Assembly: GCA_000169355.1 (NCBI GenBank)
Contig: AAXX01000005.1
Span: 62,001 to 126,000, forward strand
From: Flavobacteria bacterium BAL38
Lineage (GTDB): Bacteria > Bacteroidota > Bacteroidia > Flavobacteriales > Flavobacteriaceae
Reading direction: 5' to 3'
Length of the DNA: 64,000 nt
The translations under genes were made by a program, and so were the position numbers. Every line of letters begins with the position of its first letter. The first letter of the stretch is position 1. Positions 13,716 through 42,880 of the stretch are shown here, in pieces. The notes below the pieces were generated by a model that searched no databases, was not told where the DNA came from, and saw only the letters and a program-made list of their open reading frames with translations.

Positions 13716-14465
13716 TTAAAACCCATTCACAATAGCTAAAAAGTCTTCTGCTTTTAAGGCAGCGCCACCTATTAAACCTCCATCAACATCAGGTTTTGAG
13801 AATATTTCTTTTGCATTGTCAGGTTTTACACTTCCACCATATAAAATAGTTAGGTTGTCTGCAATATCAAATCCGTATACTTTTTCTACTAACGATCTAA
13901 TAAATTTATGCATTTCTTGCGCTTGCTCAGGAGAAGCCGTTTCACCTGTTCCAATTGCCCATACTGGTTCGTATGCTAAAACAATACTAGCCCAATCTTT
14001 TTTTTCTAAATGAAATAAAGCATCTCTTAATTGGTATTCAACCACATTAAAATGATTGTTTATTTGACGATCTTTTAATTCCTCGCCAAAACAGAAAATA
14101 ACACGCATTTCATGTTTAAAAGCAGTGTCTACTTTGCTAGCCAACAAGGCATCGGATTCATGAAAATAAGCACGTCTTTCACTGTGACCCAAAATTACGG
14201 TGTTTACACCAATATCGGTTAACATACCAGCTGCAATTTCTCCAGTATAAGCGCCACCTTCTGCTTGATGCATGTTTTGAGCGGCTACAGTAATGTTATG
14301 TTCTTTTGTAGTTTCAACCGCTTTTGCTAAATTAACAAAGGTTGGAGCAACTACTATTTCGGTAGCAGTTTTAGGATGATTTGCTATAATTTCTTCTAAT
14401 AATGCAATAGTTTCCTGTTGGTTTTTATGCATTTTCCAGTTTCCGGCAACAATGTTTTTTCTCAT
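13716..14465 (-). CDS. tpiA: Triose-phosphate isomerase
   Basis: Interconverts dihydroxyacetone phosphate and glyceraldehyde 3-phosphate in glycolysis. The 249-aa protein has the N-terminal GNWKMHK with the catalytic Lys, GHSERR with the electrophilic His, AYEPVWAIGTG with the catalytic Glu, and the phosphate-binding LYGGSV near the C-terminus. It is 4 nt downstream of the TlpA-like gene on the same strand, so they are probably one transcript. Confidence 0.97.
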   Translation of the reverse strand: MRKNIVAGNWKMHKNQQETIALLEEIIANHPKTATEIVVAPTFVNLAKAVETTKEHNITVAAQNMHQAEGGAYTGEIAAGMLTDIGVNTVILGHSERRAYFHESDALLASKVDTAFKHEMRVIFCFGEELKDRQINNHFNVVEYQLRDALFHLEKKDWASIVLAYEPVWAIGTGETASPEQAQEMHKFIRSLVEKVYGFDIADNLTILYGGSVKPDNAKEIFSKPDVDGGLIGGAALKAEDFLAIVNGF

Positions 14466-28283: not shown

Positions 28284-28374
28284 AACAAATAAAGACAAAT
28301 TTTCGATTCGTAGAGGTTTTTCCGAAGGAAAAACCAAGCCCAAGCCATTGTGCAAAACAGCTGTTGTAAACAGT
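28284..28374 (-). repeat. Array site A (degenerate or half attC-like site)
   Basis: The right side matches the other sites: AAAACAGCTGTT, then the payload-specific GTAAACAGT, with the core GTT at 28363-28365. An internal hairpin GGTTTTTCC/GGAAAAACC lies at 28315-28336. I could not find a left half that pairs with TTGTGCAAAACAGC; only GACAACAAC at 28288 recalls an AAC core. It is the end of the array farthest from the recombinase. Confidence 0.5.
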
Positions 28375-28796: not shown

Positions 28797-28938
28797 CTGT
28801 TTTACAACGTTTTCGGGCTTGGCGAAGGTGGCGATTTTCACTACAAATGTTGATGCGGAAAACCAATGTTTGATTATCCACAAATATGTCTTCGGAGCAC
28901 TGAACCGCCACTTTTGCTAAACCCGTGTTGTGCGTTCG
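28797..28938 (-). repeat. Array site B (attC-like palindrome)
   Basis: Left core AAC at 28806-28808, right core GTT at 28927-28929. Stem arms 28814-28833 (CGGGCTTGGCGAAGGTGGCG) and 28906-28925 pair over 20 positions, with four differences that are all transitions, so they form G-T pairs in a folded strand. The left spacer is 5 nt and the right spacer 1 nt. The loop is about 72 nt. Outer bases are ACTGTTTT on the left (payload I) and GTGCGTTCG on the right (payload II). Confidence 0.75.
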
Positions 28939-28964
28939 TGCTTTGTTATAGTATTTTATTTCTT

Positions 28965-30506
28965 TTATTTTGTTATTTGCTCAAACCAAAACACATTACT
29001 GTTTCCCCTCACTGCTTCTTTATCATCTTCACTCAATCCCATTAAAAAACTTTTGTATGTAGCCATATATGAAGCTGCAGATTTACCTGGACAATATGAA
29101 TTAAAAACATTATAACTATATGGTTTTGCCATTGTTGTTAAAGAGTTTACACAAGGGAAAACTTTATTCCAGTTTCCCATGACAAGGAATCTTGCTTCAT
29201 TCCAAACTGGACAGTTAATTTTTTGTCCAGCAGATACCATCCTATTACTTTCTGAAACTACTTGGTCTACATAAAGTAGATTTTGTTTTTTATAAAACTC
29301 TGCTTTTTCTGAATATGACTTTTTTGCACTTGCAAGTTCAGCTGTTGATTTGGTTACTGATTCATTTGCTTCAAATTTCTTTTTATCATAATTTGGTTTA
29401 ATCTTTGCAATTTCAAGTGCTTGTTGTTTCGCGAGATTGGTGCTCAATTGAAAAACTTCATCCTTCAACTTTTTACTCTCATTTTCTAACGATGTAATCT
29501 TGCTTTTAACGTTAGTGTTGTAATCAAATATATTATTTTCTATAGACGTAATTTGTAATATTAATTGATTCAAGCTAGTGGTAAGTTCTGCTTTTGTACT
29601 ATCAGGTATAGTATGGCCAATTAGCTCTTTTTCAGTTTCATTCTTTTGTGTTTTTAAATCATTTAAGTTAGATTCTAATGGAGATAAATAATTAGTTTGC
29701 TCAATTTGAATTTCTTTAATTCGTTGTTGGTTAGTAACTATTTTAGCATTTTTTTCATTTTGTGCATCTAAATTTTCTTTTTTTACTCTTAATTTTATTA
29801 TCTCACTTTCTTTTTGAAATTCCTGTTCGTAACGTAATGTTCTAGCTTTGTAGATTGTTATTTTATCATCCGCAATGAGAATATTAGTAGCATAACTCAT
29901 TAAATCGTTTACCCAATTATCATGTTGCCCTTTAGCCTCTGAAAATACTTTTGTCTCATAGTTTTTACTATGGGTTGATATTTCTTTACATAAAGTTTCA
30001 TTAGCTTTTTCTAAATTACTAATGTCATTTAGTTTTTTATTAACTGGATTGTCACTTTTTTCCAAATTTTGAATTTGTACTTTTTTCATGGCAATCTTTT
30101 CAGTAAACAATTTTCTTGTTGCTTCCAGTTCTTCTGTTGTAGCAGGTATTGCATAACCTTTTACTTCACCTAGATGTTTTTCAAAGTTTTCACCTTTCTT
30201 TTCAAAATCTGACTTCCAACCACCACACTGACTACATCTTGCTCCTACCTTCATATCGGCAATTAAATTGTCTCTTTCCTTGTAAAGGGCAGAAAGCTCA
30301 TCTTTTAGCTTCTGAATTTTATCCCTCCATAAGGATTCAAGATTTATTAGCTCTTCTTTATATAGAGCAATTTTTGCTCTATTGTTTTCAAATGTCAACG
30401 CTTTTGATTCAATACTTATTACTTCACCAATGCCAATGGTTTGAGCGGTTGCCTTTAAAGAAAGCAACGTGAAGATTAACAGGAAAATTCTATAAAATTT
30501 TGTCAT
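28965..30506 (-). CDS. Exported coiled-coil protein of unknown function (payload II)
   Basis: 513 aa. A signal peptide (FYRIFLLIFTLLSLKATAQ) is followed by ~370 residues of Lys/Glu/Asn-rich heptad-like sequence that should form long coiled coils, with one CSQC motif near residue 90. The C-terminal ~90 residues are compact and have three cysteines (around INCPVWNEARFLVMGNWN, FPCVNS, YCPGKSA). I know no family. It starts 20 nt after the 198-aa exported protein gene, so the two probably work together. Confidence 0.65.
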   Translation of the reverse strand: MTKFYRIFLLIFTLLSLKATAQTIGIGEVISIESKALTFENNRAKIALYKEELINLESLWRDKIQKLKDELSALYKERDNLIADMKVGARCSQCGGWKSDFEKKGENFEKHLGEVKGYAIPATTEELEATRKLFTEKIAMKKVQIQNLEKSDNPVNKKLNDISNLEKANETLCKEISTHSKNYETKVFSEAKGQHDNWVNDLMSYATNILIADDKITIYKARTLRYEQEFQKESEIIKLRVKKENLDAQNEKNAKIVTNQQRIKEIQIEQTNYLSPLESNLNDLKTQKNETEKELIGHTIPDSTKAELTTSLNQLILQITSIENNIFDYNTNVKSKITSLENESKKLKDEVFQLSTNLAKQQALEIAKIKPNYDKKKFEANESVTKSTAELASAKKSYSEKAEFYKKQNLLYVDQVVSESNRMVSAGQKINCPVWNEARFLVMGNWNKVFPCVNSLTTMAKPYSYNVFNSYCPGKSAASYMATYKSFLMGLSEDDKEAVRGNSNVFWFEQITK

Positions 30507-30526
30507 TTTCTTTGGAATGATTTTGT

Positions 30527-31123
30527 TTAATTACCAAATGGATCATCTTCCGCCTTATACAAATCGCGAAGATATTCCAATGCCTTTTTCATCTTATTAA
30601 AGTTAGACGGATCTGTAGCTAAAAAGGGAATGGAGATTTCTGAGACACTATATTCTTTAAGGTCAGACCTCTCCCAATTATAACAATTGCCTGTGTTGCT
30701 ATTTTGTTTTTGGTATGCATAAGCTTCTTGTATATCTCTCCCTACTTTTCCAATCAAAGTAATTTTTACAAGTCCCACAGGTTCTCCCAGGTTAGGCTCA
30801 ACCAGTATAATATCTTTAATATGCGCTGGGTTGAACCAAGTAATATTAACGTTTTCAAAATATCCGCAATTACCTCCAAATTCCTCAAGCATATTTTTTC
30901 TAGTTGTTTTTAGTTGTAATAAGTTGTTATCCAAATCAAAACTTGTGTTTTTAAAATATAATCGGTTCGTTAGGCCACCAGGAGTCCGATAGTGTCCATC
31001 GATTTCGTTAATTTTTTTCTTTAAGTAATTAACGGTTTCCTCTTTTGTTAGTGAGGCTTTGTCTTGTGCAAATGAGGTTAATGAGCACAATGCAAAAAGA
31101 TAGATTAATACTTTTTTTTTCAT
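30527..31123 (-). CDS. Exported protein of unknown function (payload II)
   Basis: 198 aa with a signal peptide (KKVLIYLFALCSLTSFAQ). The mature part is mixed alpha/beta, with a CGYF and a later NCYNW. Nothing matches a family I know. It is first in the payload II transcript. The 105 bases upstream to site C hold no other gene. Confidence 0.65.
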   Translation of the reverse strand: MKKKVLIYLFALCSLTSFAQDKASLTKEETVNYLKKKINEIDGHYRTPGGLTNRLYFKNTSFDLDNNLLQLKTTRKNMLEEFGGNCGYFENVNITWFNPAHIKDIILVEPNLGEPVGLVKITLIGKVGRDIQEAYAYQKQNSNTGNCYNWERSDLKEYSVSEISIPFLATDPSNFNKMKKALEYLRDLYKAEDDPFGN

Positions 31124-31228
31124 TTTATGTAAATTTTTCTTTTACCTACTCTATTCAGTTTTCGGCTTCCCTGTTTTTATCTAAGTTATTTTTCACAGCC
31201 AGTTTCAGGTCTGTATTGTTGCTATAGC

Positions 31229-31376
31229 ATGACGCACAACGTTTCGCGGCTTCAAGAAGTGGCGATGAACCAAGACCAAGCCTTTACAAATATAAACAAA
31301 ACTTTAAATAAAAACCTTTCCAATTTCTGATAAATCCGTGCCTCGCCATTTCTTGAAACCGCTGTTGTAGGCAGTA
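31229..31376 (-). repeat. Array site C (attC-like palindrome)
   Basis: Left core AAC 31238-31240, right core GTT 31364-31366. Arms 31246-31265 (GCGGCTTCAAGAAGTGGCGA) and 31343-31362 pair at 18 of 20 positions. The left spacer GTTTC and right spacer T match site B. Outer bases GACGCAC on the left match the start of payload II, and GTAGGCAGTA on the right match the end of payload III. The ~77-nt loop is AT-rich. Confidence 0.78.
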
Positions 31377-31430
31377 CTTCTTATAAAGTACTAAATGTCA
31401 ATTCCAACGATTTAAGCAGTATCCTTTCGC

Positions 31431-31661
31431 AGTTCGGAAGATTTCTATTTATGTATGCTCTAAATCTAAAAATGTATGCCATAATTCTTTTTAGGTATGC
31501 CATAAATCTAAAATTGTATGTCATATATCTATTTATGTTTAGCAGTTTTCTAATTGTGTTTATTATAATTCTTTTGATGTATTGAATATATTTAAAATTG
31601 GTTGTTTTAAATCTAAATACGGTTGCTAAATTTCTAAATAGGGTAGACGATAACCTAAAAA
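31431..31661. repeat. Degenerate 21-bp tandem repeat, 10-11 units
   Basis: Ten units lie in strict 21-bp register from 31452 to 31661, with a weaker eleventh from 31431. A typical unit is TGTATGCCATAAATCTAAAA plus one base; later units drift but keep the TGTATG start and the TCTAAAA end. On the minus strand the frame stays open across all units and would give heptads such as FRFMAYL and KRIMAYI from a TTG, but I see no ribosome-binding or promoter sign and do not call a gene. It lies between the payload III terminator and site C. Confidence 0.7.
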
Positions 31662-31669
31662 AGTATGAC

Positions 31670-31701
31670 AAAAGACTTATTGCGTGAGCAATAAGTCTTT
31701 T
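31670..31701 (-). terminator. Strong terminator of the payload III transcript
   Basis: A perfect 14-bp stem, AAAAGACTTATTGC (31670-31683) with GCAATAAGTCTTTT (31688-31701), loop GTGA, A and T runs on both sides. It lies 32 nt after the last gene of payload III and just before the 21-bp repeats. Confidence 0.85.
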
Positions 31702-31732
31702 TGTTTTTTCTTTCTTTTCGTTTTGGGTTGTG

Positions 31733-32464
31733 CTATAATTTTGGTTTGCTGAATTTAATTCCGCTTACTTGGTTATATTGTGGACTGCTTGCTCCAAAAA
31801 CTGATTTAATGTATTTTTTTACTTCGCTTGCTGTTTCAAAAATTCCGTTGTCGCTTGTGTAAAGAGTTTCGTTTCTTGAAATTCTTGAATTGCTTATGTT
31901 TGTGTATGCTGTTGATACTGCTGTATTTTTAGCTGTTAAGTCTGCAATTTTTGCATCAATTGTAGCAACTTGTAATTCTGCTTCGTTTGGTGTATAGCTT
32001 GGTTCTTCTTCTAAAACTGACTTTAAACCTGATAAATGTTGTATTAGTTGGTCGTAAGATTGTTGGCTTGTAGAAATTGTTGTTGGTGCTGGTGCATTTG
32101 GGTCGGTTGGCGTTTGCGAAGCAGACGCTTTTTTACCTTGCATTTTGCGGTTGAATGTTTTAGCATCGTTAATCGTTTGGGTTGTTGCATCTGTTGTTTG
32201 CAATGCGTTGACTAAACGAGTTGATAATGATTTTAAGTTGCTAAAAGCAACCATACGTTCATTTACTTTGTTGTTGTAATTTGTGTTTTTTGAAATTACG
32301 TCTGTTAGTTTTGTTTCTGCTGTTGCTTTTAATGCAACAAGTTGAGCCAATTTAAGACTGCTTTTTGATGGATTATAAGTTGCTCCATAACCAGTAACAA
32401 ACTCAATTAAATCTTGAAAGTTTGCTACATTTTTTGCGTGACCTACTTCTGATGTTGATGCCAT
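31733..32464 (-). CDS. Hypothetical helical protein (payload III)
   Basis: 243 aa with no signal peptide. It is Ala/Thr/Ser/Asn-rich and predicted mostly helical, with a Pro-rich linker near residue 120 (TPTDPNAPAPTTIST). The start MASTSEVGHAKNVANFQDLI is distinctive, and I recall similar unnamed proteins in other flavobacteria without known function. It is last in the payload III transcript, directly before the terminator. Confidence 0.65.
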   Translation of the reverse strand: MASTSEVGHAKNVANFQDLIEFVTGYGATYNPSKSSLKLAQLVALKATAETKLTDVISKNTNYNNKVNERMVAFSNLKSLSTRLVNALQTTDATTQTINDAKTFNRKMQGKKASASQTPTDPNAPAPTTISTSQQSYDQLIQHLSGLKSVLEEEPSYTPNEAELQVATIDAKIADLTAKNTAVSTAYTNISNSRISRNETLYTSDNGIFETASEVKKYIKSVFGASSPQYNQVSGIKFSKPKL

Positions 32465-32527
32465 ATTTTAGTTTTTAGAGATTAATATATTTCAAAAAAA
32501 AAAATTTATGATAAAACGCAAAATGTA

Positions 32528-33301
32528 CTATTTTAAATTTATTACCATTCCTAAACCGATTTGATTGCCATTATAAAAAGGTGCTACCATTGCTGAATTT
32601 ATATTTTTTTTGGATTTAAAAATATGATTGTCAATATATGGGAAAATCCAATAGGCAATTTTAGTGCTTAAAATACCTATTCCTGCACCCATAGCAACAT
32701 CGGTAAGCCAATGTTTATCGTTGTATATGCGAAATATACCAGTACCTGTGGCAACTAAATAACCTGAAATACCATACCATATAGAAACATCTTTGTATTC
32801 TTGCCATAAAAATTCTGCTCCTGCAAATGCAGTTGCAGTATGCCCTGACGGAAATGAATTAAAACCACTATGGTCGGGTCTTTCTATTTTTGTGATGTTT
32901 TTTAAAGCATATACTGAAGTACCCATCAATAAATAAGAAGTTCCTAATATAATACTTCTATCTCTCAAATTGTTTTTTCCTTTTATTCCTCCAAGATTTA
33001 GTGCGTAAACCGAAAGTGCTGGTGCATATTGTGAAAAATCATCTATCGTAATTTTATTATCTATGTTTTCGTTTACTTCTTCTTTTATGCCTGAATTAAT
33101 GAATTTTAAACCATCGCTCTCAATTCCTATAATTCCATAAGCCATTAATACAGTTGGAATAATGAGTTGTTTGTATTTGAATTTTAGATTTTCTGTTTTA
33201 GTATTTTTTAAACTATCTTTTTGTTGTAATTGTTGTGCGTTAGAATAGTATGAACAGAAAGCAAAAATTAAAGTTATAATTTTATATTTATTTGATTTCA
33301 T
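32528..33301 (-). CDS. PAP2-family phosphatase, exported or membrane-bound (payload III)
   Basis: 257 aa. A signal peptide (KIITLIFAFCSYYSNAQ) is followed by the three PAP2 motifs: K-x6-RP in KNITKIERP, PSGH in NSFPSGHTATAF, and the R-x5-H-x3-D motif in RIYNDKHWLTD. It should remove phosphate from a lipid such as undecaprenyl pyrophosphate or phosphatidate on the periplasmic side. Its start overlaps the end of the DUF347 gene by 14 nt. Confidence 0.88.
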   Translation of the reverse strand: MKSNKYKIITLIFAFCSYYSNAQQLQQKDSLKNTKTENLKFKYKQLIIPTVLMAYGIIGIESDGLKFINSGIKEEVNENIDNKITIDDFSQYAPALSVYALNLGGIKGKNNLRDRSIILGTSYLLMGTSVYALKNITKIERPDHSGFNSFPSGHTATAFAGAEFLWQEYKDVSIWYGISGYLVATGTGIFRIYNDKHWLTDVAMGAGIGILSTKIAYWIFPYIDNHIFKSKKNINSAMVAPFYNGNQIGLGMVINLK

Positions 33302-34016
33302 TTTTAGTTTTTTGATTAATGTTATAAACTATTGAAAAAAAAATAATTAGAAATATACTTGTGTAAACATTTCCAAAATTTAGCCCTGCTGGTTTAGAAA
33401 TATAATTTCCAAAAGTGGCACCAATTGGATGAATTATGATTATTGCTAACCAATAAAATAAATCTTTTGAAATTTGTTTGAAACGTAATAATAGAATTGA
33501 AACTATCAATAATGCAATTAATAAAATTGTACCGCCATCTGCTCCGAGAGGTGTATCGTTAGACAAAAAATCGCCCGATGTTGTGCCAAATGTACTTGAT
33601 GTTAGTATAGCAAACCAATAGAGAAATTCAATTTTCATATCAGTAATTACACTTTGCTTTTTTGATATTATTTTTATAGCTAATAAAATCATAAAAAACG
33701 CAAAAATGACTAATAATGAACCATAAATAGTTCCTAAATTTAGGTCAATGCAAATTAAATCGGCAATATTTGTTCCACCAATATTGCCAAGAATAATAAG
33801 AAACCAATAAAATAATTGATTAAATTTTTTGGTTAGAATAGAATATAGAATAGAATATAGAATAGCAGATACAAAAGTTGTTACTAGTAGTATTGAACCA
33901 ATTTTGTAGCCTAAACCCAAATCTCTTGAAATATAATTGCCTACAATTTCGCCTGTTGTTGTAGCGATTATCATTAGCACCCAATAGATGAAATTTATTT
34001 TTGGTATGTGTTTCAT
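33288..34016 (-). CDS. DUF347 (COG4705) membrane protein, paralog 2
   Basis: 242 aa with about eight helices arranged as four repeats, each holding a polar G-x-x-x-G-D/N-x-x-S motif (TTGEIVGNYISRDLGLGY, GTTSGDFLSNDTPLGADGG, GATFGNYISKPAGLNFG). This matches DUF347. The family is uncharacterised; some relatives have been linked to metal tolerance, which is only a hint here. It lies 1 nt after its paralog and overlaps the PAP2 gene. Confidence 0.8.
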   Translation of the reverse strand: MKHIPKINFIYWVLMIIATTTGEIVGNYISRDLGLGYKIGSILLVTTFVSAILYSILYSILTKKFNQLFYWFLIILGNIGGTNIADLICIDLNLGTIYGSLLVIFAFFMILLAIKIISKKQSVITDMKIEFLYWFAILTSSTFGTTSGDFLSNDTPLGADGGTILLIALLIVSILLLRFKQISKDLFYWLAIIIIHPIGATFGNYISKPAGLNFGNVYTSIFLIIFFSIVYNINQKTKNEIK

Positions 34017-34017
34017 T

Positions 34018-34767
34018 TTAATTTGAATTAGTTTCTAGTTTTTTATGAGAATAATAAATAAGGAAAAGCATTATAATTATCGAAACTATTGATGCTTGTA
34101 GTGTACCTAAATCTAAACCACCTTTTGTGATTGGTTTGGTTAAAAAATCGCCAAATGTAGCACCAAATGGGCGAGTAAATACAAATGCTAACCAAAACAA
34201 TAAGGCTTCGTTTAGTTTTGTAAAATAGTGTAGCAAGACTACAAAAACAATAATTGTAGCTGTAATTAATGCACCTTGAAGATATGTAAAACCAATAACA
34301 TCGCTCAAATAATCGCCAAATGCTGTGCCAAGACTATTGGAAAAAAGAACCGCAATCCAAAAGTAAATTTCTTTTTTGTTTTCGATTATTGGACTAACAG
34401 TTAGATTATTATATTTTTTGTACCATAAAAACAAAGTTAGGAGTAAGCCGATAAGTAATATCAAACTTCCTATTGTATAACCTAAATTTAGACTTCGGTC
34501 TATAAAATCGGAGATTTCAGTACCGAGCGTTGTGGTTGCAATAATTACAAGCCAAAATGCTATGGGTTTATAATTTGCTGTTTTTAATTGGATATATAAA
34601 AGTACAATAAAGAAAACTAATGTTATTGCTATTCCTGTTGAATATCCCAAGTTTAAAGTCATAGAAATAAAATCGCCCAAGGTTTCACCAAGTGTTGTTG
34701 CGACTATTTTCATAAGCCAAAATAATAATGTTATTTCAGCTATCTTGTTTATGTTTTTTGTTTCCAT
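34018..34767 (-). CDS. DUF347 (COG4705) membrane protein, paralog 1
   Basis: Start at the ATG at 34767 (METKNINKIAEITLLFWLMK); a frame from 34794 adds nine residues. About 249 aa, with the same four-repeat DUF347 pattern (ATTLGETLGDFISMTLNLGY, LGTAFGDYLSDVIGF, FGATFGDFLTKP). The pair probably arose by duplication and may form a heterodimer, since the stop and start are 1 nt apart. Confidence 0.8.
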   Translation of the reverse strand: METKNINKIAEITLLFWLMKIVATTLGETLGDFISMTLNLGYSTGIAITLVFFIVLLYIQLKTANYKPIAFWLVIIATTTLGTEISDFIDRSLNLGYTIGSLILLIGLLLTLFLWYKKYNNLTVSPIIENKKEIYFWIAVLFSNSLGTAFGDYLSDVIGFTYLQGALITATIIVFVVLLHYFTKLNEALLFWLAFVFTRPFGATFGDFLTKPITKGGLDLGTLQASIVSIIIMLFLIYYSHKKLETNSN

Positions 34768-34780
34768 ATTTTTATAATTA

Positions 34781-34811
34781 AGCGAGCAAATCAACTTTTG
34801 ATTTGCTCGCT
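34781..34811 (-). terminator. 13-bp hairpin between PepSY-like and DUF347 genes
   Basis: AGCGAGCAAATCA (34781-34793) and TGATTTGCTCGCT (34799-34811) pair perfectly around ACTTT. There is no long T run, so it may be an attenuator or mRNA stabiliser that sets expression of the PepSY-like gene apart from the genes below it. Confidence 0.6.
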
Positions 34812-34819
34812 GTGATTAA

Positions 34820-35242
34820 TTATTGAACTAATTTACCATCTTGATTATAAAAATACTCAACCGTTTTTAAGCCTTTTTTAACTTCAATTTCGTATTGCGT
34901 TTCGCCTTTATTGTTTTCTATTTTGGCAACCGCTTTTATTTTTGCTCCTTTGTGAGAAGTATTGAAGGTGTTTTGAACTTTTGCAGGAAGTTGTACAAAA
35001 GTTGTGGGACTTTCGGTTTCTAACCATTCGCCTTTACTACTATAATTAGCTGAATGTTTTACATTGTTTTCTGTAAAACTTGCTTCGTACTCGGTAGCAT
35101 TTTCTTTATCCCACTTTACTTTAGTTGCTTTTGGAAATTTTGAGTAAAAAGCTGTTTCTACTTCTTTTGGTGCTTTACTTTGTGCAGTAATTGTTGCTGA
35201 ACTACATACAATAGCCAATGCAACGAAAAATATATTTTTCAT
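34820..35242 (-). CDS. PepSY-like periplasmic protein (payload III)
   Basis: 140 aa with a signal peptide (NIFFVALAIVCSSATITAQS) and two repeats of the PepSY-like pattern (FPKATKVKWDKENATEYEASF; HKGAKIKAVAKIENNKGETQ). Proteins of this kind are small periplasmic beta-rich factors found near envelope stress and metal response systems. Role here unknown. Confidence 0.82.
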   Translation of the reverse strand: MKNIFFVALAIVCSSATITAQSKAPKEVETAFYSKFPKATKVKWDKENATEYEASFTENNVKHSANYSSKGEWLETESPTTFVQLPAKVQNTFNTSHKGAKIKAVAKIENNKGETQYEIEVKKGLKTVEYFYNQDGKLVQ

Positions 35243-35311
35243 TTTTTTGAATAATTTAAAATTTAATAATAGTCTTGTTCTCCTTTTTTAAAAAGGATTA
35301 ACTGTGTTAAA

Positions 35312-35716
35312 TTATGCAAAAATAGGAGGTCGAAAAATTGAAGAAATTGGATTGTGAGAATAGATAGAATTTTCATAATCTGGAATTAAAACCGCATTTG
35401 AAATAATGATTTTACTTGATTTGAATTCTATATTATTTATTTCTTGAAAAACTATATTAGTGATATGATGAATTGTTAAGTCAATACTTTTGTGTGGTTT
35501 TTGTTCATCACCATTATCGTGTTTATCAAATAAACTATCAATGTTTATCAAATGGTCAGTGAGAAAATCTAAAGCAGTCATATCTTTATCTTCTGTTGCT
35601 TTACAATGGTCATACATTTTAGGTAAATCTCCAATTACAGAAAAATTACCCATTGGTAAAAAAATCGTTCCCAACGAGTAAAAAGTAATTAGAAATATTT
35701 GTAAAATGTTTTTCAT
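35312..35716 (-). CDS. Hypothetical small exported protein (payload III)
   Basis: 134 aa with an N-terminal hydrophobic segment (ILQIFLITFYSLGTIFLPMG). The middle is rich in Asp and His (FDKHDNGDEQKPHKSIDLTIHHI) and could bind metal. It resembles the short His-rich proteins that often precede efflux or TonB genes in Bacteroidota, but I cannot name a family. It is first gene of payload III. Confidence 0.6.
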   Translation of the reverse strand: MKNILQIFLITFYSLGTIFLPMGNFSVIGDLPKMYDHCKATEDKDMTALDFLTDHLINIDSLFDKHDNGDEQKPHKSIDLTIHHITNIVFQEINNIEFKSSKIIISNAVLIPDYENSIYSHNPISSIFRPPIFA

Positions 35717-35789
35717 TGTTATAGTAACGAATAACTTTCTTTTTTAGTATTTTTTTGATTGGATTTATTTCTGCGGTCTGTTGCTCGAG

Positions 35790-35933
35790 TATTGCCTACA
35801 ACGTTCCGCTGCTTCTCGTCAGTTGCGAAGTTCGGAACTTTATATTTTCTATCAAAGATAATATTTCTTGCGAAACGTAAACGTGAACTTACCACAAAAT
35901 TCGCAATTGCGAGAAACGGCTGTTACCTGCTGG
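35790..35933 (-). repeat. Array site D (attC-like palindrome with extrahelical base)
   Basis: Left core AAC 35800-35802, right core GTT 35922-35924. Arms 35808-35829 and 35900-35920 share TTCTCG and TTGCGAA blocks; the left arm has one extra T between them, as in the extrahelical bases of integron attC sites. Outer bases TATTGCCTAC (payload III) and ACCTGC (payload IV). Confidence 0.78.
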
Positions 35934-35958
35934 CGTATTTTCCGTATTGCACTTTCCG

Positions 35959-38382
35959 TTAAAATTTATAACTATATCCAAGCCTTATTACTTGTGTTTC
36001 GTAATAGTCATTACTGTTATAATTAAAGCCTTGTCCGTTGATTTCTTTTTTGATTATCATTGTGTTTAGCAAATCTGACGCGTTAAAAAAGAGCTCGCCT
36101 TTCCCTTTTTGAATTGCTTTTTTTAGTCCAAGGTCTAATGAAAATCTCGATTTAATTTTTCCTTGTGGAATAATGTCGGGCGCTAAATAAATACCTGTTA
36201 ATTGCACATCTATGTTTTTAGGAAAATGAAACGTATTGTTCAATTTAATATTTCCAGAATATATTTCTTGTTTGTCTGCTGAAAATGTATGTGTAGTAGG
36301 ATATTTGTTTTCAACAGTAAATGCATCTATTTGATTTCTGTATGCGTTTAGATTAATATTGAATGCGTACAATTTAGAAATTTCTTGTGCTAAAACCATT
36401 TCAATTCCTGTGTTGTAACTTTTATTTACGTTTTGAAATGTTGCATAAATTAAATTACTTGGTGGAACAGTACTAGAAATTCTTGTAATCGTTCCGTCAG
36501 CAAATCTGTGATAAATAGCATTATATAAACTTCCTTTTTCCCAATTTTTTTTATAGCCCAATTCTATCGAATTTGTAAATTGTGGTCGCAATGCAGGATT
36601 CCCAACTTTAATTATTTCTGCATCGTCATATTTTGGAAAAATACGAATATCAACTTCGTTAGGTCGGTCAACTCTTCGGTTGTAGAAAATAGAAACTTTG
36701 TTATTGTCGTTAATTTTGTATGCCAAACGTAAATTTGGAAACGGTTGGGTATAATTATATCCATCACTTTGATAAACAATATGATTAGGATTAACGTCAT
36801 ATTGAATTTTTACATACTCAATTCTTAAACCTAGTTCGGCTTCCCATTTTTTATTTTCAAAAATATAGTTTCCATAAACGGCAGGAATTAGTTCTTTATA
36901 AGTTGCCCAACCGCCTGCATTGGTGTCTAAAACTGAATTTACACCTGGTATAAATTGCATATTTGTCGGTATATTTCTGTTACGAAGTTTAATTCCTGTT
37001 TCAATTCGTCCGTATTTAAGTGGTTTTATGTAGTCAAAATTAAAATCATAAACTTGCTCGTCAGATAATAATTTAAACGCATCTGTTCCTGTGGAAGTTG
37101 GCAAATAATTGTCGTAAAAATATTTTTCGTCTTCTCTGTGAAAAGTGTAATTGAAACCAATATTTAGCAAATGTCCTGCTTCTTTAAATTTGTGTTGATA
37201 AATGGCAGTTGCCATAATAGTTGTTTTTAATTCATCTTCTAAAAACTGCCAAAGTCTATTTCGTTGTGAAAAGTCTCCATTAAAAAATGGTTGGTCGCCT
37301 TTGTCAATTATTTTTTCACTTCCAAAAAGTCCTGAAACAGTCAAAGAATTTTGGTCGTTAATTGCATAATCAAAACCACTTTTCAATGTCGTAAAATGTG
37401 TGTTTCTGTTGCGTTTTAATTGTGAATTAATTACATCGCCATTGTCGTAATTTCTTGTTACAAATTCATTTTTGTTAAGCGTTTCAGTATATAAGTAATC
37501 GCCTTGAAAAAAGACATTGACTTTGTTTTTTCTATAATTGAGTGAAACGCTTGGGTTGATTTTTGGTGTAAAAGTATATTGTTGTCTTATGGATGGTAAA
37601 TTTTCTTTTCGCACCCAAAGAGAACCTACACCTGTTGTAAAACCAATCTTTCCATTAAAACCATCTTTTTTGTTTTTCTTGTAAATAATATTGATAATCC
37701 CTGCGTTTCCATTTACATCATATTTGGCAGAAGGATTGTTGATGATTTCAATTTTTTCAATCGCAGAAGCAGGAATATTATCTAATCCTGTTTGGTTGCC
37801 AAAACCTGTTAATGCTGTTTGTTTTCCGTCAATGAGTACAGTCACTTTATCGTTTCCACGAAGTTGTACTTTTCCGTCTTGTACTGTAACACTTGGTAAA
37901 TTTTGCATAGCTTGTAAAACCGAACCACCACTTTGACTAATATTGTCTTTTAGAGAAAAAGTTTTTTTGTCCATTGCAGCACTTAATTCGGAAGTTTTTC
38001 CTGTTACAACAACTTCTTGTAATGTGGTAGTTTCTTCTTCCAATTCAATAGTGTTGATGTCTAAAAATTCCGTTAGATTTCCAACATAAAGCGATTGTTT
38101 TGATGTTTTGTAGCCGATAAAAGAAACCTCTAAATAGTAGTTTCCAGATTTTATTTTTGATAAAGAAAAACGTCCTTCTTCGTTGGTTACTGTTCCACTA
38201 ATAAATGAATTGTCTTTTTCTGTTTTTATCAACACGTTTACAAAAGGCAAAACAGCTTTGCTATTTTTGTCCTTTATAATTCCCGAAACGGTTACACTTG
38301 TTTGTGCGTTTGTGATTGAGAAGAATGAAAGTTGTAAAATCAAAAAGTATAGTACTTTTTTTGATGCATTTTGTGGAAACAT
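35959..38382 (-). CDS. TonB-dependent outer-membrane receptor (payload IV)
   Basis: 807 aa. A signal peptide is followed by a carboxypeptidase-D-like domain at about residues 29-110 (VSGIIKDKNSKAVLPFVNVL), a plug domain (LQAMQNLPSVTVQDGKVQLRG; YDVNGNAGIINIIYKK) and a ~550-residue beta barrel ending VIRLGYSYKF, with a terminal aromatic as expected of an outer-membrane barrel. There is no SusD partner, so it is not a classical SusCD uptake pair. The AraC gene 90 nt upstream may control it. Ligand unknown. Confidence 0.9.
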   Translation of the reverse strand: MFPQNASKKVLYFLILQLSFFSITNAQTSVTVSGIIKDKNSKAVLPFVNVLIKTEKDNSFISGTVTNEEGRFSLSKIKSGNYYLEVSFIGYKTSKQSLYVGNLTEFLDINTIELEEETTTLQEVVVTGKTSELSAAMDKKTFSLKDNISQSGGSVLQAMQNLPSVTVQDGKVQLRGNDKVTVLIDGKQTALTGFGNQTGLDNIPASAIEKIEIINNPSAKYDVNGNAGIINIIYKKNKKDGFNGKIGFTTGVGSLWVRKENLPSIRQQYTFTPKINPSVSLNYRKNKVNVFFQGDYLYTETLNKNEFVTRNYDNGDVINSQLKRNRNTHFTTLKSGFDYAINDQNSLTVSGLFGSEKIIDKGDQPFFNGDFSQRNRLWQFLEDELKTTIMATAIYQHKFKEAGHLLNIGFNYTFHREDEKYFYDNYLPTSTGTDAFKLLSDEQVYDFNFDYIKPLKYGRIETGIKLRNRNIPTNMQFIPGVNSVLDTNAGGWATYKELIPAVYGNYIFENKKWEAELGLRIEYVKIQYDVNPNHIVYQSDGYNYTQPFPNLRLAYKINDNNKVSIFYNRRVDRPNEVDIRIFPKYDDAEIIKVGNPALRPQFTNSIELGYKKNWEKGSLYNAIYHRFADGTITRISSTVPPSNLIYATFQNVNKSYNTGIEMVLAQEISKLYAFNINLNAYRNQIDAFTVENKYPTTHTFSADKQEIYSGNIKLNNTFHFPKNIDVQLTGIYLAPDIIPQGKIKSRFSLDLGLKKAIQKGKGELFFNASDLLNTMIIKKEINGQGFNYNSNDYYETQVIRLGYSYKF

Positions 38383-38472
38383 TTTTGATCAATTTTAAAT
38401 TATACTGCAAATAACGTTAGTAACTACGAGTAAATAAAAAAAGACAAGTGCAGAATAATTTTTTTGTACAAA

Positions 38473-39507
38473 TTAGTTGTTTTGCACAAGATTTTTTTTG
38501 AATTCAGTTGGTGTTAAACCTTTGAATTTCTTGAATATAGCATTAAAAGAAGATTTAGAATTAAAACCCACATCTATGGCAATTCCTAAAAGTGTAAATT
38601 GATTATTTTGGTCATTTTTTAGGCATTTTATAAATTCTTCTACTCTGTATTCATTGATGAAATCTTGGAAATTTGTTTTCATGTGTTCGTTTAAAACTTC
38701 CGAAATATAATGTTTTGGAATATTGAGTTTTTCTGAAACATCTTGAATGGTTAATTTTCCATTCAAGTACAATTTATCTATTTTCATTGCATTAATTAAA
38801 TCCGACTTATATTGTTCAATCAGTTTTGTGTTCAGATTAGAATTTTTGTATTTGCTTATTTCGTTTTTTGGCAAAATATATTTGTTATTAGTCAATAATT
38901 TAAAAGAAATAAAGTAGAATAGAAAGGCGACAATTAATAAAAGATAGGAGTTAAAGTTTTGATTGCTGAAAAAAGTTAATTCTTTTAATCCAATTATTTT
39001 AAGAGTATCATTTATACAAGAAAACACAAGTAAAATAACAATTGGAATAACAAAATAAATAGTCCAAATTCTTCTTTTATTCGTAAAAACAGAATGTAAA
39101 ATTAAGACTAGATAAATCACAAAAGTTAATTCCAAAATCACTTCTAGAATTTCAATATTAAAGTTTTCTTTGGGTAATTTTATTTCGAATACTTCAAGAA
39201 TTAAATAAAAAATGTTGGGAAGAAAAAATAGATAATTGGATTTTATAAATTTTTCTCTTTCATTTTTGTAATACTTGAAAAACAAAAACAGAAAGGTTAC
39301 AAATAAGGTATTATCAAAAAGAAACCAATCTCTATTTTCAACAAACAGATTGTTTTTGTCATCACCCAAGATGTAAAGTAAAACAGAGATTAAACTTCCA
39401 AAGAGCAACCAAAAAGTAGTTTTTTTGTAATCTTTCCGATTTGTAAACAAGACTAAAAGGACAAAAATCCCTTGTATTAAAGCAATGATTTGAATTGTTT
39501 GGAGCAT
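38473..39507 (-). CDS. AraC-family regulator with membrane-embedded sensor (payload IV)
   Basis: 344 aa. The N-terminal ~210 residues contain six to seven hydrophobic helices. The C-terminal ~100 residues are an AraC-type double helix-turn-helix (LTIQDVSEKLNIPKHYISEVL; LGIAIDVGFNSKSSFNAIFKKFKGLTPTEF). This architecture senses a signal in the membrane and binds DNA on the cytoplasmic side. It probably regulates the TonB receptor gene behind it. It is the recombinase-proximal gene of the array. Confidence 0.88.
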   Translation of the reverse strand: MLQTIQIIALIQGIFVLLVLFTNRKDYKKTTFWLLFGSLISVLLYILGDDKNNLFVENRDWFLFDNTLFVTFLFLFFKYYKNEREKFIKSNYLFFLPNIFYLILEVFEIKLPKENFNIEILEVILELTFVIYLVLILHSVFTNKRRIWTIYFVIPIVILLVFSCINDTLKIIGLKELTFFSNQNFNSYLLLIVAFLFYFISFKLLTNNKYILPKNEISKYKNSNLNTKLIEQYKSDLINAMKIDKLYLNGKLTIQDVSEKLNIPKHYISEVLNEHMKTNFQDFINEYRVEEFIKCLKNDQNNQFTLLGIAIDVGFNSKSSFNAIFKKFKGLTPTEFKKNLVQNN

Positions 39508-39529
39508 TGTTTTACTTACGTTTTTTGGG

Positions 39530-39537
39530 CAAAAGTA
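39530..39537 (-). promoter_or_regulatory. -7 element upstream of the AraC gene
   Basis: TACTTTTG on the minus strand fits TAnnTTTG and stands 22 nt before the AraC ATG. No clear TTTG -33 was found. It lies inside payload IV, so this cassette seems to carry its own promoter. Confidence 0.5.
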
Positions 39538-39583
39538 GTGAAAATTTCGTTATTTTTTCAGATGTTCGTGTCGCTCGGAACGC

Positions 39584-39621
39584 TTGCAGGTAACTTGTAT
39601 ATATCATCAAATATATACAAC
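39584..39621 (-). repeat. Array head site E, attI-like, with AT-rich hairpin
   Basis: TTGCAGGTAAC (39584-39594) mirrors the GTTACCTGC at the far end of payload IV. It has no attC-like stem beyond it. Instead it abuts TTGTATATAT (39595-39604) and ATATATACAA (39611-39620), a perfect 10-bp inverted repeat with loop CATCAA. Read on the minus strand this contains TATATTTG, a possible -7 box facing the cassettes. It is 19 nt from the recombinase stop. Confidence 0.65.
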
Positions 39622-39639
39622 TTTTTTATATTGTAAAAA

Positions 39640-41382
39640 TTATTCATCAAGTTTTTTCTTACTTTTTAAATCAATCATTCGGTCTAACGGACTCTGTATT
39701 TTATCTACAGCCGTTTTGGTTAAATGCGTATAAACAGTAGTCGTTTTAATACTCGAATGTCCTAAAAATTGCTGAATGTATCGTATATCGGTGCCATTCT
39801 CAAGTAAATGAGTCGCAAAACTATGACGCAATGTGTGTACAGTTGCTTTTTTCTCTAAGCCACTTAACTTTAATGCCGTACGCATAACCTGTTGCACACT
39901 CCCTGTACTATAAGGCTCACCAGCAAACTGACCCTCAAAAACATACAACTTGCCCTTGTACAACTCTCTATACAATTGCAACGAACTAACAATAGAGTAG
40001 GGCAACATTACCATACGATCTTTCTTTCCCTTGGCATTTTTAACATGTATTTTGTGCTCCTCAAATAAAATATCACTCCATTTTAAACTCACAATCTCAC
40101 TCACTCGCAATCCAGCACCATAACCAATCAATAATAGCAACTTATGTTTCGGATTATCCACCACCTTAAAAATTAGCAAACATTCCTCCATCGTCAATAC
40201 AACCGGAAGTTTCTTCTCCTTTTTCGGACGCGGAAGCACAAATGTAAAATCGCGCTTTCCTAAAACTTGCTGATAGTAAAACTGAACCCCATTCACCATA
40301 CTATGACCACTAGTGGCCGACAAGCCTCGCTCCATTAACGAACCTAAAAAGCGAATAATCTCCTCTCTACTTATTTCCTCCGGATTCCTAAAAGCAAAAT
40401 AGCGCAAAAACTGAATAAAAGCACCACAATACGTGCGCAAAGTAGAACTACTATAATTCAAGGCTAATAATGTATCAACCATACCACTCAAATACAAGTG
40501 AGCCTTTTCAGGAACCATATCCAGCAAACTCTTCTTCGTTTTAGACAAATCCAGCTGCTTTTTATTAGGCAAATTACGCTTATCTAAATAATTTTTCGGA
40601 AGCAATATTTCAATCTCAATCCCCGTATTCTCAAACTGCAAATGCAAAGAATCCACTACAACCGGAGCAGCCGGAAGCAAATAACAATTCTTACTCTTGC
40701 TAAAACGCATCATTGAAAACCGCTTCAATTTCTCATGAACCAGCAACACTTTAGGAACATAAACCTCCATCCATGAAACAGCTTCAGCATGAGGCAAAAC
40801 CTTTATTTTTCCTTTAACAACAAAAGAATCTTTAACAAAATAATCCAATCCAAAAAACCCCGAAACACCTAAAATACCCTCAACCTCTTTTTTAACCACC
40901 TCATTCCTAAAAACCATGTAACTTTTATAATTACCGTTCCAGTAAACCCCTTTAACCTTTAAAAGTTGTTTACTAATTTCATGATGAAAATGCATTTTAA
41001 AAACCCAATATTTACCTATACTTGGCAACAATTGTAACCTCAATTTATCAGAAGAAACAACAGATTGTTTATGTTCAGGATTACTCACAACAGAGCCTAA
41101 CTGAAGAGCGCTTGAAGAAGCTATGGGTGAAAGGTCACGGTTATCAACACCGGTCACCAGAGTAGGAATAGAAGATTCAGTAACAACCACCAAATCCGGA
41201 AAATGAGAACGTAATAAATGATAAGAAACCTTAGAATAATCTAAATACCAACAACGACGAGAACCACTATAAGTAGCACCTAATCGTTTTAAAACAGCAA
41301 TAACTTCAAAATCCTTATCAAAAAACACCCCAATGCGATAAGCACCATGGTGAAAAATCTTCTCAATACGTATAGTTTTCAT
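39640..41382 (-). CDS. Tyrosine recombinase of the cassette array
   Basis: 580 aa. The C-terminal catalytic domain shows R426 (GAGLRVSE), the K454 region (KGKKDR), H516-x-x-R519 (HTLRHS), H542 (GHSS) and the nucleophile Y551 (VYTHL), then QSPLD, which recalls the SPLD at the end of IntI. It lacks the ~20-residue insert that marks integron integrases. A SAM-like core-binding domain lies at ~300-385. Residues 1-240 hold three weak repeats with a cluster of the form YSGSRRCWYL (38-47), YWNGNYKSYMV (147-157) and FSKSKNCYLLP (227-237), resembling the HARP DNA-annealing fold. Its 3' end faces the array. Confidence 0.88.
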   Translation of the reverse strand: MKTIRIEKIFHHGAYRIGVFFDKDFEVIAVLKRLGATYSGSRRCWYLDYSKVSYHLLRSHFPDLVVVTESSIPTLVTGVDNRDLSPIASSSALQLGSVVSNPEHKQSVVSSDKLRLQLLPSIGKYWVFKMHFHHEISKQLLKVKGVYWNGNYKSYMVFRNEVVKKEVEGILGVSGFFGLDYFVKDSFVVKGKIKVLPHAEAVSWMEVYVPKVLLVHEKLKRFSMMRFSKSKNCYLLPAAPVVVDSLHLQFENTGIEIEILLPKNYLDKRNLPNKKQLDLSKTKKSLLDMVPEKAHLYLSGMVDTLLALNYSSSTLRTYCGAFIQFLRYFAFRNPEEISREEIIRFLGSLMERGLSATSGHSMVNGVQFYYQQVLGKRDFTFVLPRPKKEKKLPVVLTMEECLLIFKVVDNPKHKLLLLIGYGAGLRVSEIVSLKWSDILFEEHKIHVKNAKGKKDRMVMLPYSIVSSLQLYRELYKGKLYVFEGQFAGEPYSTGSVQQVMRTALKLSGLEKKATVHTLRHSFATHLLENGTDIRYIQQFLGHSSIKTTTVYTHLTKTAVDKIQSPLDRMIDLKSKKKLDE

Positions 41383-41403: not shown

Positions 41404-41445
41404 TTATATATCACAAATATATAAAATAAAAATAAAATACCCAAA
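41404..41445 (-). promoter_or_regulatory. Recombinase promoter overlapped by an inverted repeat
   Basis: On the minus strand, TTTG (41442-41445), 20 nt, then TATATTTG (41414-41421) form a full Bacteroidota promoter. The -7 box lies within a perfect inverted repeat TTATATAT/ATATATAA (41404-41411, 41417-41424; loop CACAA). The same design, TATATAT-CA(T)CAA-ATATATA, is found at the array head (39595-39620). Binding of the recombinase to both, with self-repression, is an inference. Confidence 0.6.
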
Positions 41446-41482
41446 CCATTGTAAAGTCAAGCGAAGTCGAGAAACACAAAAC

Positions 41483-41558
41483 CACCACCATTGTCAAGTC
41501 GAGCGAAGTCGAGACAAAACAAAAAGCACCATTCCCACCACCGTCAGTTCGAGTGATT
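41483..41558. repeat. 76-bp direct repeat, copy 1 (flanks TA pair)
   Basis: Begins CACCACCATTGTCAAGTCGA and ends GTTCGAGTGATT. It contains the palindromic GTCGAGCGAAGTCGAG word. The copy at 42392-42467 differs at about two positions. A partial third GTCAAGCGAAGTCGAG lies at 41456. Confidence 0.8.
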
Positions 41559-41659
41559 ATGCAAAGTAAAAATGTATCGAGAACAATTAAAATTAAATAA
41601 AGAACAAAAAAATGAACACAAAAATTATGTTAATTAAAACAGTAAAATAATTAATTGTT

Positions 41660-41998
41660 TTAACTATTTAAAAGAATTTCTACTTCATTTCGTAAAATAG
41701 GTAAGTTTTTAACAACAATACCCCAAATCACATCATCAGACACGGAATCATATCCATGAATTATTCTATTTCGTACATCAACAATTTTTCTTGAATTCGA
41801 AATTTCAATAGTACTATTCTCTTTAAGAATTCGATTCATTGCTTCTCCAATAATCTCAATATTTCTCTCAATAGCCCTTTTAGTCCTTAAATCATTTTGA
41901 TAAATTTCAAACATTTTTGGAGTTTCAACAAAGTAACTTTCAATTTCATTTATTGAACTTAAAATATCATAAAGCCAAGTTTTAATAGAATCATCCAT
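41660..41998 (-). CDS. hepT: HEPN-domain toxin (HepT-like, DUF86)
   Basis: 112 aa, all helical. The HEPN ribonuclease motif R-x4-H-x-Y is complete: R76, H81 and Y83 in VRNRIIHGYD. In characterised type VII systems this RNase is inactivated when the MNT partner adds AMP to the tyrosine. Its start overlaps the end of the nucleotidyltransferase gene by 8 nt. The pair lies between the recombinase and tRNA-Tyr. Confidence 0.9.
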   Translation of the reverse strand: MDDSIKTWLYDILSSINEIESYFVETPKMFEIYQNDLRTKRAIERNIEIIGEAMNRILKENSTIEISNSRKIVDVRNRIIHGYDSVSDDVIWGIVVKNLPILRNEVEILLNS

Positions 41999-42311
41999 AA
42001 ATCAATACTTTATTTTGATTCAATTTTTTTCTAAAATACGGATTTTTTATAGCTTTTTCTTCTAATAAGTCAATACTTCGTTTTAAAATACGTTCAAGTG
42101 AAAACTTTAAATTATAATAATTATCGCCATAATCTAAAACATCCAAATTTTCAAAATCAACAATCAAATCAACATCACTTTCGTTATTAAATTTATCAGT
42201 CAAGACAGAACCAAAAGCATATAAAGATTTTACTTTATGCGCTTTACATAAAATCGAAATATCTTTATTATGATTATCTAATAAATTCATTGAAGGATTA
42301 ATTTTACTCAA
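41991..42311 (-). CDS. mntA: MNT nucleotidyltransferase antitoxin (MntA-like)
   Basis: 106 aa minimal nucleotidyltransferase. The GS-x10-D-x-D active site is G34-S35 and D46/D48 (FGSVLTDKFNNESDVDLIVDF is the region). It should AMPylate and silence the HEPN partner. The start could also be M8. It is first in the two-gene unit, as usual for MntA/HepT. Confidence 0.9.
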   Translation of the reverse strand: MSKINPSMNLLDNHNKDISILCKAHKVKSLYAFGSVLTDKFNNESDVDLIVDFENLDVLDYGDNYYNLKFSLERILKRSIDLLEEKAIKNPYFRKKLNQNKVLIYG

Positions 42312-42391
42312 AAATACATAAAAAAATATAGTTTTTAATTTTTCACTCTATTTTTTTATAATTTACTAATAACAAGTATAATTTATAAAAT

Positions 42392-42467
42392 CACCACCAT
42401 TGTCAAGTCGAGCGAAGTCGAGACAAAACAAAAAACACCATTTCCACCACCGTCAGTTCGAGTGATT
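42392..42467. repeat. 76-bp direct repeat, copy 2 (flanks TA pair)
   Basis: Matches 41483-41558 in the same orientation with about two differences. The two copies enclose the HEPN/MNT pair plus about 180 bases. Confidence 0.8.
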
Positions 42468-42880
42468 TTAAAAGGAAAAAATGCTAATTTTTGCCTTGTA
42501 AAATTGTATCGAGAACCAGTAAAATGGCATCACCACCGTCAGTTCGAGTGATTTTAAAAGGAAAAAATGCCAATTTTTGCTTTTTAAAATTGTATCGAGA
42601 ACACGTAAACCGTATATTTTTTTTATAAAATAAAACAGACAAAAACTTCTCGATACGCTTCGCACTCGAAGAGACGTGTGTCGAGAACCAGTAAAATCGC
42701 ATCAACACCGTCAGTTCGAGTGATTTTAAAAGGAAAAAATGCCAATTTTTGCTTTTTAAAATTGTATCGAGAACAAAAAAAGAAAAAAAGTCATACTAGG
42801 GAGATACTCCATAGATAGTGTATAGATAAAGTATAGATAGTGTATGTAAGATGTATGCAATACTAGAAACAGTCAGATAC

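Follow-up and report, generated by a model that had tools for sequence, protein, structure and literature searches.

A tyrosine recombinase with HARP-like N-terminal units and a putative integron array in Flavobacteriaceae

The DNA considered here, called the window (the whole stretch of 64,000 nt that was analysed), carries on its minus strand a gene for a tyrosine recombinase with a long N-terminal extension. A first-pass annotation, made from the sequence alone, had suggested that this extension consists of repeats akin to the HARP module of annealing helicases, and that such a module might suit a recombinase acting on folded, attC-like DNA. What kind of recombinase is this, and what might the extension do for it? 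The comparison of genomes described below makes it very likely that the enzyme joins attC to attI at a GTT, in other words that it belongs to an integron, although the integrase-dependent movement of cassettes is inferred. I will refer to integrons of this kind as HARP-type, and to the classical integron integrases as IntI. The features of the window are listed in Table 1.

Table 1. Features of the HARP-type locus, in positions of the window. E-values and i-E values are those of the method named.
Feature	Position	Strand	Evidence
Partial attC 4, 5' part only	28288..28368	minus	nhmmer, model positions 5-82, E 8.8e-4
attC 3	28799..28936	minus	covariance model, E 1.9e-19
Cassette 3: two ORFs (513 and 198 aa), neither with a Pfam match at E 0.001	28808..31239	minus	
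attC 2	31231..31373	minus	covariance model, E 2e-23
Cassette 2: two DUF347 repeat proteins, PAP2, PepSY-like, two unknowns	31240..35801	minus	
attC 1	35793..35931	minus	covariance model, E 3.7e-23
Cassette 1: AraC-type regulator and TonB-dependent/OMP beta-barrel protein	35802..39591	minus	
attI, conserved 32 nt ending in GTT where cassettes begin	39592..39623	minus	ortholog comparison
HARP-type integron integrase gene (integron reading very likely), 580 aa	39640..41382	minus	ORF and Pfam
Catalytic domain, residues 396-556	39715..40197	minus	PF00589, E 2.4e-37
Core-binding (SAM-like) domain, residues 301-376	40255..40482	minus	PF13495, E 3.3e-11
HARP-like unit 3 (predicted), residues 190-262	40597..40815	minus	AlphaFold; matches unit 1; top structural match T4 UvsW
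HARP-like unit 2 (predicted), residues 114-173	40864..41043	minus	AlphaFold; weak sequence support
HARP-like unit 1 (predicted), residues 3-67	41182..41376	minus	AlphaFold; first-unit model, i-E 1.5e-22

The recombinase and its N-terminal units

The core-binding and catalytic domains are the only confident Pfam matches of the protein, and a Pfam scan of residues 1-268 gave no match. Long relatives from 24 of 31 loci, 54-88% identical to the window protein, were aligned with it, and R426, H516, R519, H542 and Y551, which I take to be the catalytic residues, are invariant in all 25 rows. There is no second copy of the gene in its own genome.

AlphaFold models were made of the full-length protein and of residues 1-268 alone (pLDDT 73.6 and 76.4; pTM 0.33 and 0.36). 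The two models give near-identical borders for three units, each with the order E-E-H-E-E-H (beta-beta-alpha-beta-beta-alpha), at about residues 5-60, 116-171 and 192-253, and a linker at residues 69-110 is predicted with low confidence. Units 1 and 3 are clearly related by sequence, and unit 2 is supported by its predicted structure and by a few relatives. Profile-profile comparison joins units 1 and 3 (E 1.1e-6) and finds no confident match of unit 2 to unit 1 (E 0.034) or to unit 3 (E 0.3). A model made from 36 first-unit sequences, mostly of single-unit homologs, finds unit 3 in all 25 three-unit N-termini (i-E 2.5e-7 to 0.08; 4.5e-5 in the window protein) and unit 2, at 0.0017 or better, in six of them (best 5.8e-5); the window's own unit 2, with a score of 8.4, is not matched.

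How close are these units to HARP? A structural aligner placed the N-terminal domain of T4 UvsW first (unit 3; Z 8.0, rmsd 2.1, 64 aligned residues), with N-terminal domains of XPB at Z up to 6.4 (units 1 and 3) and the HARP domain of SMARCAL1 (4o66) at rank 33 (Z 4.2, rmsd 1.7, 49 aligned). HARP, XPB and UvsW domains reportedly make up one family of structure-specific DNA-binding domains (Mason et al. 2014). The recombinase units are predicted to have the fold of these domains in common with them but are fused, in one to three copies, to a tyrosine recombinase, whereas the domains of the HARP family are fused to a helicase. Rows of aIF1/eIF1 are interspersed with those of XPB at Z of about 6, by the aligner's own warning models without a clear match typically reach a best Z of 7 to 8, and Foldseek with the N-terminal model returned no E-value below 0.1.

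The sequence evidence is weaker. The Pfam HARP family (PF07443) does not match the window protein, and the first-unit profile found nothing of note among PDB sequences. HARP was matched by two of the 36 first units and DUF5710 by six, and the HARP matches to homologous units are weak (best E 9.1e-4 among first units and 8.1e-5 in another scan). When 247 Bacteroidia genomes were scanned with Pfam HARP, 14 had a match at E 0.01, and at six of those 14 loci the unit and a recombinase core lie in one frame. The best match of the scan was a recombinase unit at 25.4 bits, against a cut-off of 25, which was met this once and only in the genome scan; by hmmscan the same protein scores 22.5 bits, the highest hmmscan value among the homologs. 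A Bacteroidia SNF2 helicase matches Pfam HARP about as weakly (19.2 bits, E 9e-4). At locus L259 (1423-3111), a Bacteroidia genome encodes a 563-aa SNF2 helicase with a HARP-like N-terminus, a natural comparison for the recombinase units.

These results bear on most of what the first-pass annotation had claimed. A tyrosine recombinase with normal core-binding and catalytic domains is confirmed by the 580-aa reading frame and Pfam. Three repeats within residues 1-240 are confirmed too, except that the repeat region extends to about residue 260 and that unit 2 is weak by sequence; the three aromatic/cysteine motifs on which the repeats had been recognized fall in register within the three predicted units. 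The proposed check by structure prediction and fold search was positive only within limits, yielding three predicted alpha/beta units whose match to HARP, XPB and UvsW is moderate. The claimed resemblance to HARP is thus supported by a moderate match in structure and a weak one in sequence, and I consider it likely to be real but no more than moderate, resting as it does on predicted models. That the N-terminal module binds single-stranded or hairpin DNA remains an inference, without binding data.

attI, attC sites and cassettes

The putative attI site lies directly 3' of the integrase stop codon. Among nine close orthologs (36 pairs), mean identity is 97% over the 32 nt up to the GTT and falls to 38% over the next 32 nt. 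In the array that follows, the beginning of each cassette pairs with its own end: GTTACCTGC with GCAGGTAAC in cassette 1, GTTGTAGGCA with TGCCTACAAC in cassette 2, and GTTGTGCGT with ACGCACAAC in cassette 3. The borders are accurate to within a base or two. The array is short, its cassettes large and multi-gene. The partial fourth attC site, not listed by the covariance model, has likely decayed. Within cassette 1, a stretch that separates the AraC gene from the TonB gene (38420-38445, minus strand; AACGTTATTTGCAG) resembles the 3' end of a lost attC site, without support from any model.

A search of the genome with one attC-like sequence had given a single clear half-match, and an attC model was therefore built from 46 seed sites, found with ungapped arms and mainly from Flavobacteriaceae. 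Since RNAalifold yields only eight base pairs for it, the model works mostly as a sequence profile. With it, five attC matches were found in the 2.8 Mb of the window's own genome, three of them within the window array. Another lies on a 16-kb contig (C6 7685-7826, minus strand; E 6.2e-11) and could represent a lone cassette, a plasmid, or a broken-off piece of an array.

Do related integrase genes adjoin similar sites? In 72 loci (the window and 71 relatives), nhmmer with the attC model gave 219 matches, 216 of them downstream on the strand of the gene, two upstream on the same strand and one on the opposite strand; the reversed sequences of the same loci gave none. Two of the loci, L032 and L118, are one contig, and without the double count the figure is 213 of 215. 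At least one match is present in 49 of the 72 loci. Where 3 kb or more of sequence is available downstream, a same-strand attC site was found in all 13 three-unit loci (window included) and in 21 of 22 other unit-bearing loci, the one miss having an in-frame stop. A second set, 40 regions that I chose from a genome scan with the unit profile and that are not a random sample, gave 60 of 61 matches downstream on the gene's strand. With 3 kb or more downstream, 19 of 26 of its loci have an attC match (14 of 21 outside the family of the window), and seven do not, by a model trained mainly on Flavobacteriaceae. The expectation that homologs with this N-terminus would always adjoin such arrays has therefore mostly held, but not without exception.

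Of the three-unit genes, 29 of 31 are followed by the attI core, and the other two depart from the pattern by one base; for other unit-bearing genes the count is 28 of 34. The doubly counted contig is also within the attI core count. A narrower first pattern, superseded by the wider one, had given 19 of 29 and 19 of 33. Over 158 cassettes, the start of a cassette matches its own end at 6.37 of 9 bases, as compared to 3.24 for other pairs (P 3.6e-47), though the pairs cannot be treated as independent.

Three complete genomes were picked on account of arrays already seen in them; here 84 of 87, 33 of 40 and 10 of 14 attC matches are clustered behind the gene, and these counts are lower bounds, a limited number of candidates having been scored. 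The largest array (G068 contig 1, 534010-610262) has at least 84 attC matches on one strand within 76 kb, behind a unit-bearing integrase in a complete genome. Large arrays of Vibrio are of the same order. The cassette array of locus L020 also contains tandem repeats with a length of about 20 nt (GAGAGAAGCGTTTCCCCACC; 14240-14410). Many contigs, seen among loci L009-L039, stop soon after the 3' end of the integrase gene; this would fit arrays that break short-read assemblies, and it is possible that arrays are under-counted in draft genomes.

Repeats of other kinds occur in the window. Short dispersed repeats (GTCAGTTCGAGTGATTTT...TATCGAGAAC) at 41430-42780, between tRNA-Tyr and the integrase gene, surround an MntA/HepT-like pair (41660-42311). 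They were examined first and set aside, being of another family and on the upstream side of the gene; their core has 12 matches over the genome at no more than one mismatch. In three related loci (L012, L013 and L033), no more than about 450 nt separate tRNA-Tyr from the integrase gene, so the segment 41430-42780 looks inserted. Short tandem repeats (GTCTAGTTGCAGGTCTAGTCGCCGGT and the like) are also found inside an open reading frame at 1850-1990.

Comparison with IntI and Xer, and distribution

The additional domain around patch III (I2) has been called a defining characteristic of IntI (PMC9668308), and in IntI it is I2 that reads the extrahelical bases of the attC hairpin (PMC4792948). In 30 IntIs from other Bacteroidota, picked by the model TIGR02249, all have an insertion of 40-43 residues (41 in 28 of them), which from its place and the literature I take to be patch III/I2. 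The insertion of about 41 residues is absent from all 76 unit-bearing cores examined, and none of the 30 IntIs has a HARP-like unit at E < 1. The best PDB match of the family profile is IntI4, of which residues 178-245 align to profile positions 470-495 (67 residues in IntI4 versus 25 in the profile). In a single-sequence search of the PDB, XerA (5hxy) comes slightly ahead, and the best NCBIfam model, TIGR02249, scores 205 bits, below its curated cut-off of 265.

With XerA, XerC and XerD, the HARP-type integrases share PDB and NCBIfam matches and a core of the same length without the insertion, but they differ in forming a separate clade, in their attI and attC arrays and in their N-terminal units. 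A tree of 101 rows joins IntI and the unit-bearing rows in a clade separate from Xer (100/99), with IntI beside the three-unit group (97/81) and the other unit-bearing rows outside. A second tree, of 52 chosen rows with plasmid and wider Bacteroidia rows added, again has the joint clade apart from Xer (100/96), but here all the unit-bearing rows group with one Phocaeicola row (96/86), and IntI together with a Sinorhizobium integrase stands next to them (94/79). Long-branch warnings apply to both trees, and their inner branching order disagrees. Three recombinases in the joint clade have no attC site detected in about 9 kb: the Sinorhizobium integrase beside IntI, which has no unit, and, within the unit-bearing clade, plasmid recombinases of Phocaeicola (unit E 0.22) and of Pontibacter, the latter with units.

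Besides the joint clade, HARP-type and IntI integrons have in common attI, cassette arrays, AAC...GTT ends of attC, the pairing of a cassette's start with its own end, and a bottom strand computed to be the more stable. They differ in that the HARP-type lacks an insertion at the place of patch III/I2, which IntI has, and has N-terminal HARP-like units, which IntI does not. The HARP-type array follows the 3' end of the integrase gene; in all five IntI loci with a detected array (12 were examined), the array is on the 5' side. In Treponema integrons, the integrase gene and the array are reported to have the same reading direction (PMC3607928); two Treponema recombinases group with other rows in the 101-row tree.

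The attC stems also differ. Among 236 HARP-type stems, 158 have no bulge, 76 have one extrahelical base and two have two, as against one, two, three and four bulges in one, three, 20 and one, respectively, of 25 attC sites of IntI arrays from the same phylum. Two or more extrahelical bases are thus present in 2/236 versus 24/25 sites (P 1.5e-30); the IntI-array sites come from five of 12 fetched loci and include close copies. The ungapped arms used in finding the seeds could hide bulges, and a gapped scan (threshold 24) was run on both sets. It gave 168 sites with none, 81 with one, eight with two and one with three among 258 HARP-type sites, and two or more bulges in 11 of 12 sites of the IntI loci. 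It is possible that the joint lack of the I2 insertion and of extrahelical bases reflects co-evolution, with which it fits, but this is a correlation between lineages.

HARP-type stems have an asymmetry of another kind. Their top-strand A.C mismatches are G.T pairs on the bottom strand, and top A.C exceeds top G.T in 182 of the 236 sites, the two being equal in 54 and the reverse occurring in none. In 45 of 49 rebuilt attC sites, the bottom strand is computed to fold the more stably; the top strand folds too (mean -24.6 vs -27.2 kcal/mol). The suggestion of folded, attC-like substrates has accordingly been borne out as far as the attC sites are concerned; a folded bottom strand as the substrate is inferred, its stability having only been computed.

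The type is widespread. The three-unit N-terminal profile matched 89 of 397 genomes of the family (E 0.001), and the unit profile 147 of 345 Bacteroidia genomes (E 1e-4; 135 of 294 of good quality), with a recombinase core in 39 of 40 matches fetched. Among 80 proteins, one unit was detectable in 73, two in five and three in two (i-E 0.01), a threshold at which unit 2 of three-unit proteins often escapes detection. A single viral scan gave three weak matches, to the core only. A Chryseobacterium plasmid (L272, NZ_CP041688.1) carries a unit-bearing recombinase with a downstream attC site, and therefore the type is not only chromosomal. The NCBI annotation of this homolog is "site-specific tyrosine recombinase/integron integrase".

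Competing explanations and significance

The explanation I favor, by a modest margin, is a HARP-type integron whose units grip the folded bottom strand of attC. At the GTT of the attI site that follows the stop codon of its own gene, the integrase would recombine attI with the attC site of a circular gene cassette. Repeated capture would build a one-directional array downstream of the integrase gene. The substrate would be the folded bottom strand of attC, chosen by its G.T pairs (the A.C mismatches of the top strand) and not by extrahelical bases. The HARP-like units may grip this folded DNA, probably at the junction between the hairpin stem and the central unpaired spacer, and so do the job of the I2 helix in IntI. 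Since the integrase gene is read in the direction of the array, the first cassettes may be expressed along with it.

There are no activity or binding data. Folding and grip are inferred from the strand asymmetry, the missing insertion and the fold, and since nothing has been measured, the explanation as a whole is held with only modest confidence. That confidence is lowered further by its being a conjunction that excludes two rivals and by the recombinases without detected attC sites in the clade. Several findings count against it. The number of units ranges from one to three while the form of attC remains constant, so units need not match the geometry of the hairpin. The fold matches are no more than moderate, Pfam HARP does not match the window protein, the top strand of attC folds as well, and 54 of 236 sites are without mismatch asymmetry. 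Seven of 26 loci in the second set have no attC match, and the array of the window is short, with large multi-gene cassettes.

It remains possible that the system is an integron but that the units are an arm-type domain, reading duplex DNA (the flanks of attI or double-stranded attC) or contacting partner proteins. In its favor, attC has the same form whether there are one, two or three units, two of the 25 three-unit N-termini show weak similarity to an arm DNA-binding family (best E 0.027), and the fold match is moderate, with eIF1-like folds matching about equally. Against this, the structural aligner ranks N-terminal domains of UvsW and XPB highest, one of them from a complex with forked DNA (6p4f), and lists HARP too, and the units are present where the insertion is missing, none of the 30 IntIs carrying one at E < 1. 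Less probable is that attC is recombined as a duplex in the manner of Xer, its inverted arms being symmetrical recombinase sites that are not extruded. With hardly any bulges, the stems resemble duplex DNA, as has been said of the stem of CTXphi, a substrate of XerCD (Escudero et al. 2016, PMC4792948), and there is no I2-like insertion. Recombination as a duplex, however, would not select for the one-sided asymmetry (182 sites versus 0) or the more stable bottom strand (45 of 49). The pairing of a cassette's start with its own end is expected if the circular form folds, but inverted half-sites would give the same.

The idea of an ordinary phage or island integrase, near repeats by chance, can be all but dismissed. 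In its favor are the nearby tRNA-Tyr gene and short dispersed repeats; against it stand the evidence from attI, attC and cassette borders, the attC arrays linked to the gene in other genomes, and the outcome of the one viral scan, and the dispersed repeats, which lie upstream of the gene, belong to a different family. If, on the other hand, the favored explanation of a HARP-type integron is taken further, one may read these systems as a sister lineage of IntI integrons across Bacteroidia, in which the units replace I2 and the G.T/A.C asymmetry replaces extrahelical bases. I would give this bolder reading slightly less than even odds. If it is true, attC-like folded sites could exist without I2, whether as an intermediate or by independent origin, and the puzzle of whether I2 or attC arose first would be resolved.

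Integrons in Bacteroidota have already been reported. In the literature searched, which did not cover subscription papers and preprints, I found neither a cassette array in Flavobacteriaceae nor an integron integrase that lacks the additional domain or carries a HARP-like unit. The HARP-type has apparently been overlooked. Integron surveys look for IntI or for its additional domain, and an earlier one kept only proteins with the IntI domain (PMC2426708). If the explanation holds, a gene-capture system would have been missed whose unit matches 135 of the 294 genomes of good quality that were sampled from Bacteroidia. A puzzle posed by Escudero et al. (2016, PMC4792948) is how selection could have favored I2 when there were no attC sites yet, and attC sites when there was no I2; integrons without I2, if that is what these are, would make this paradox directly testable.
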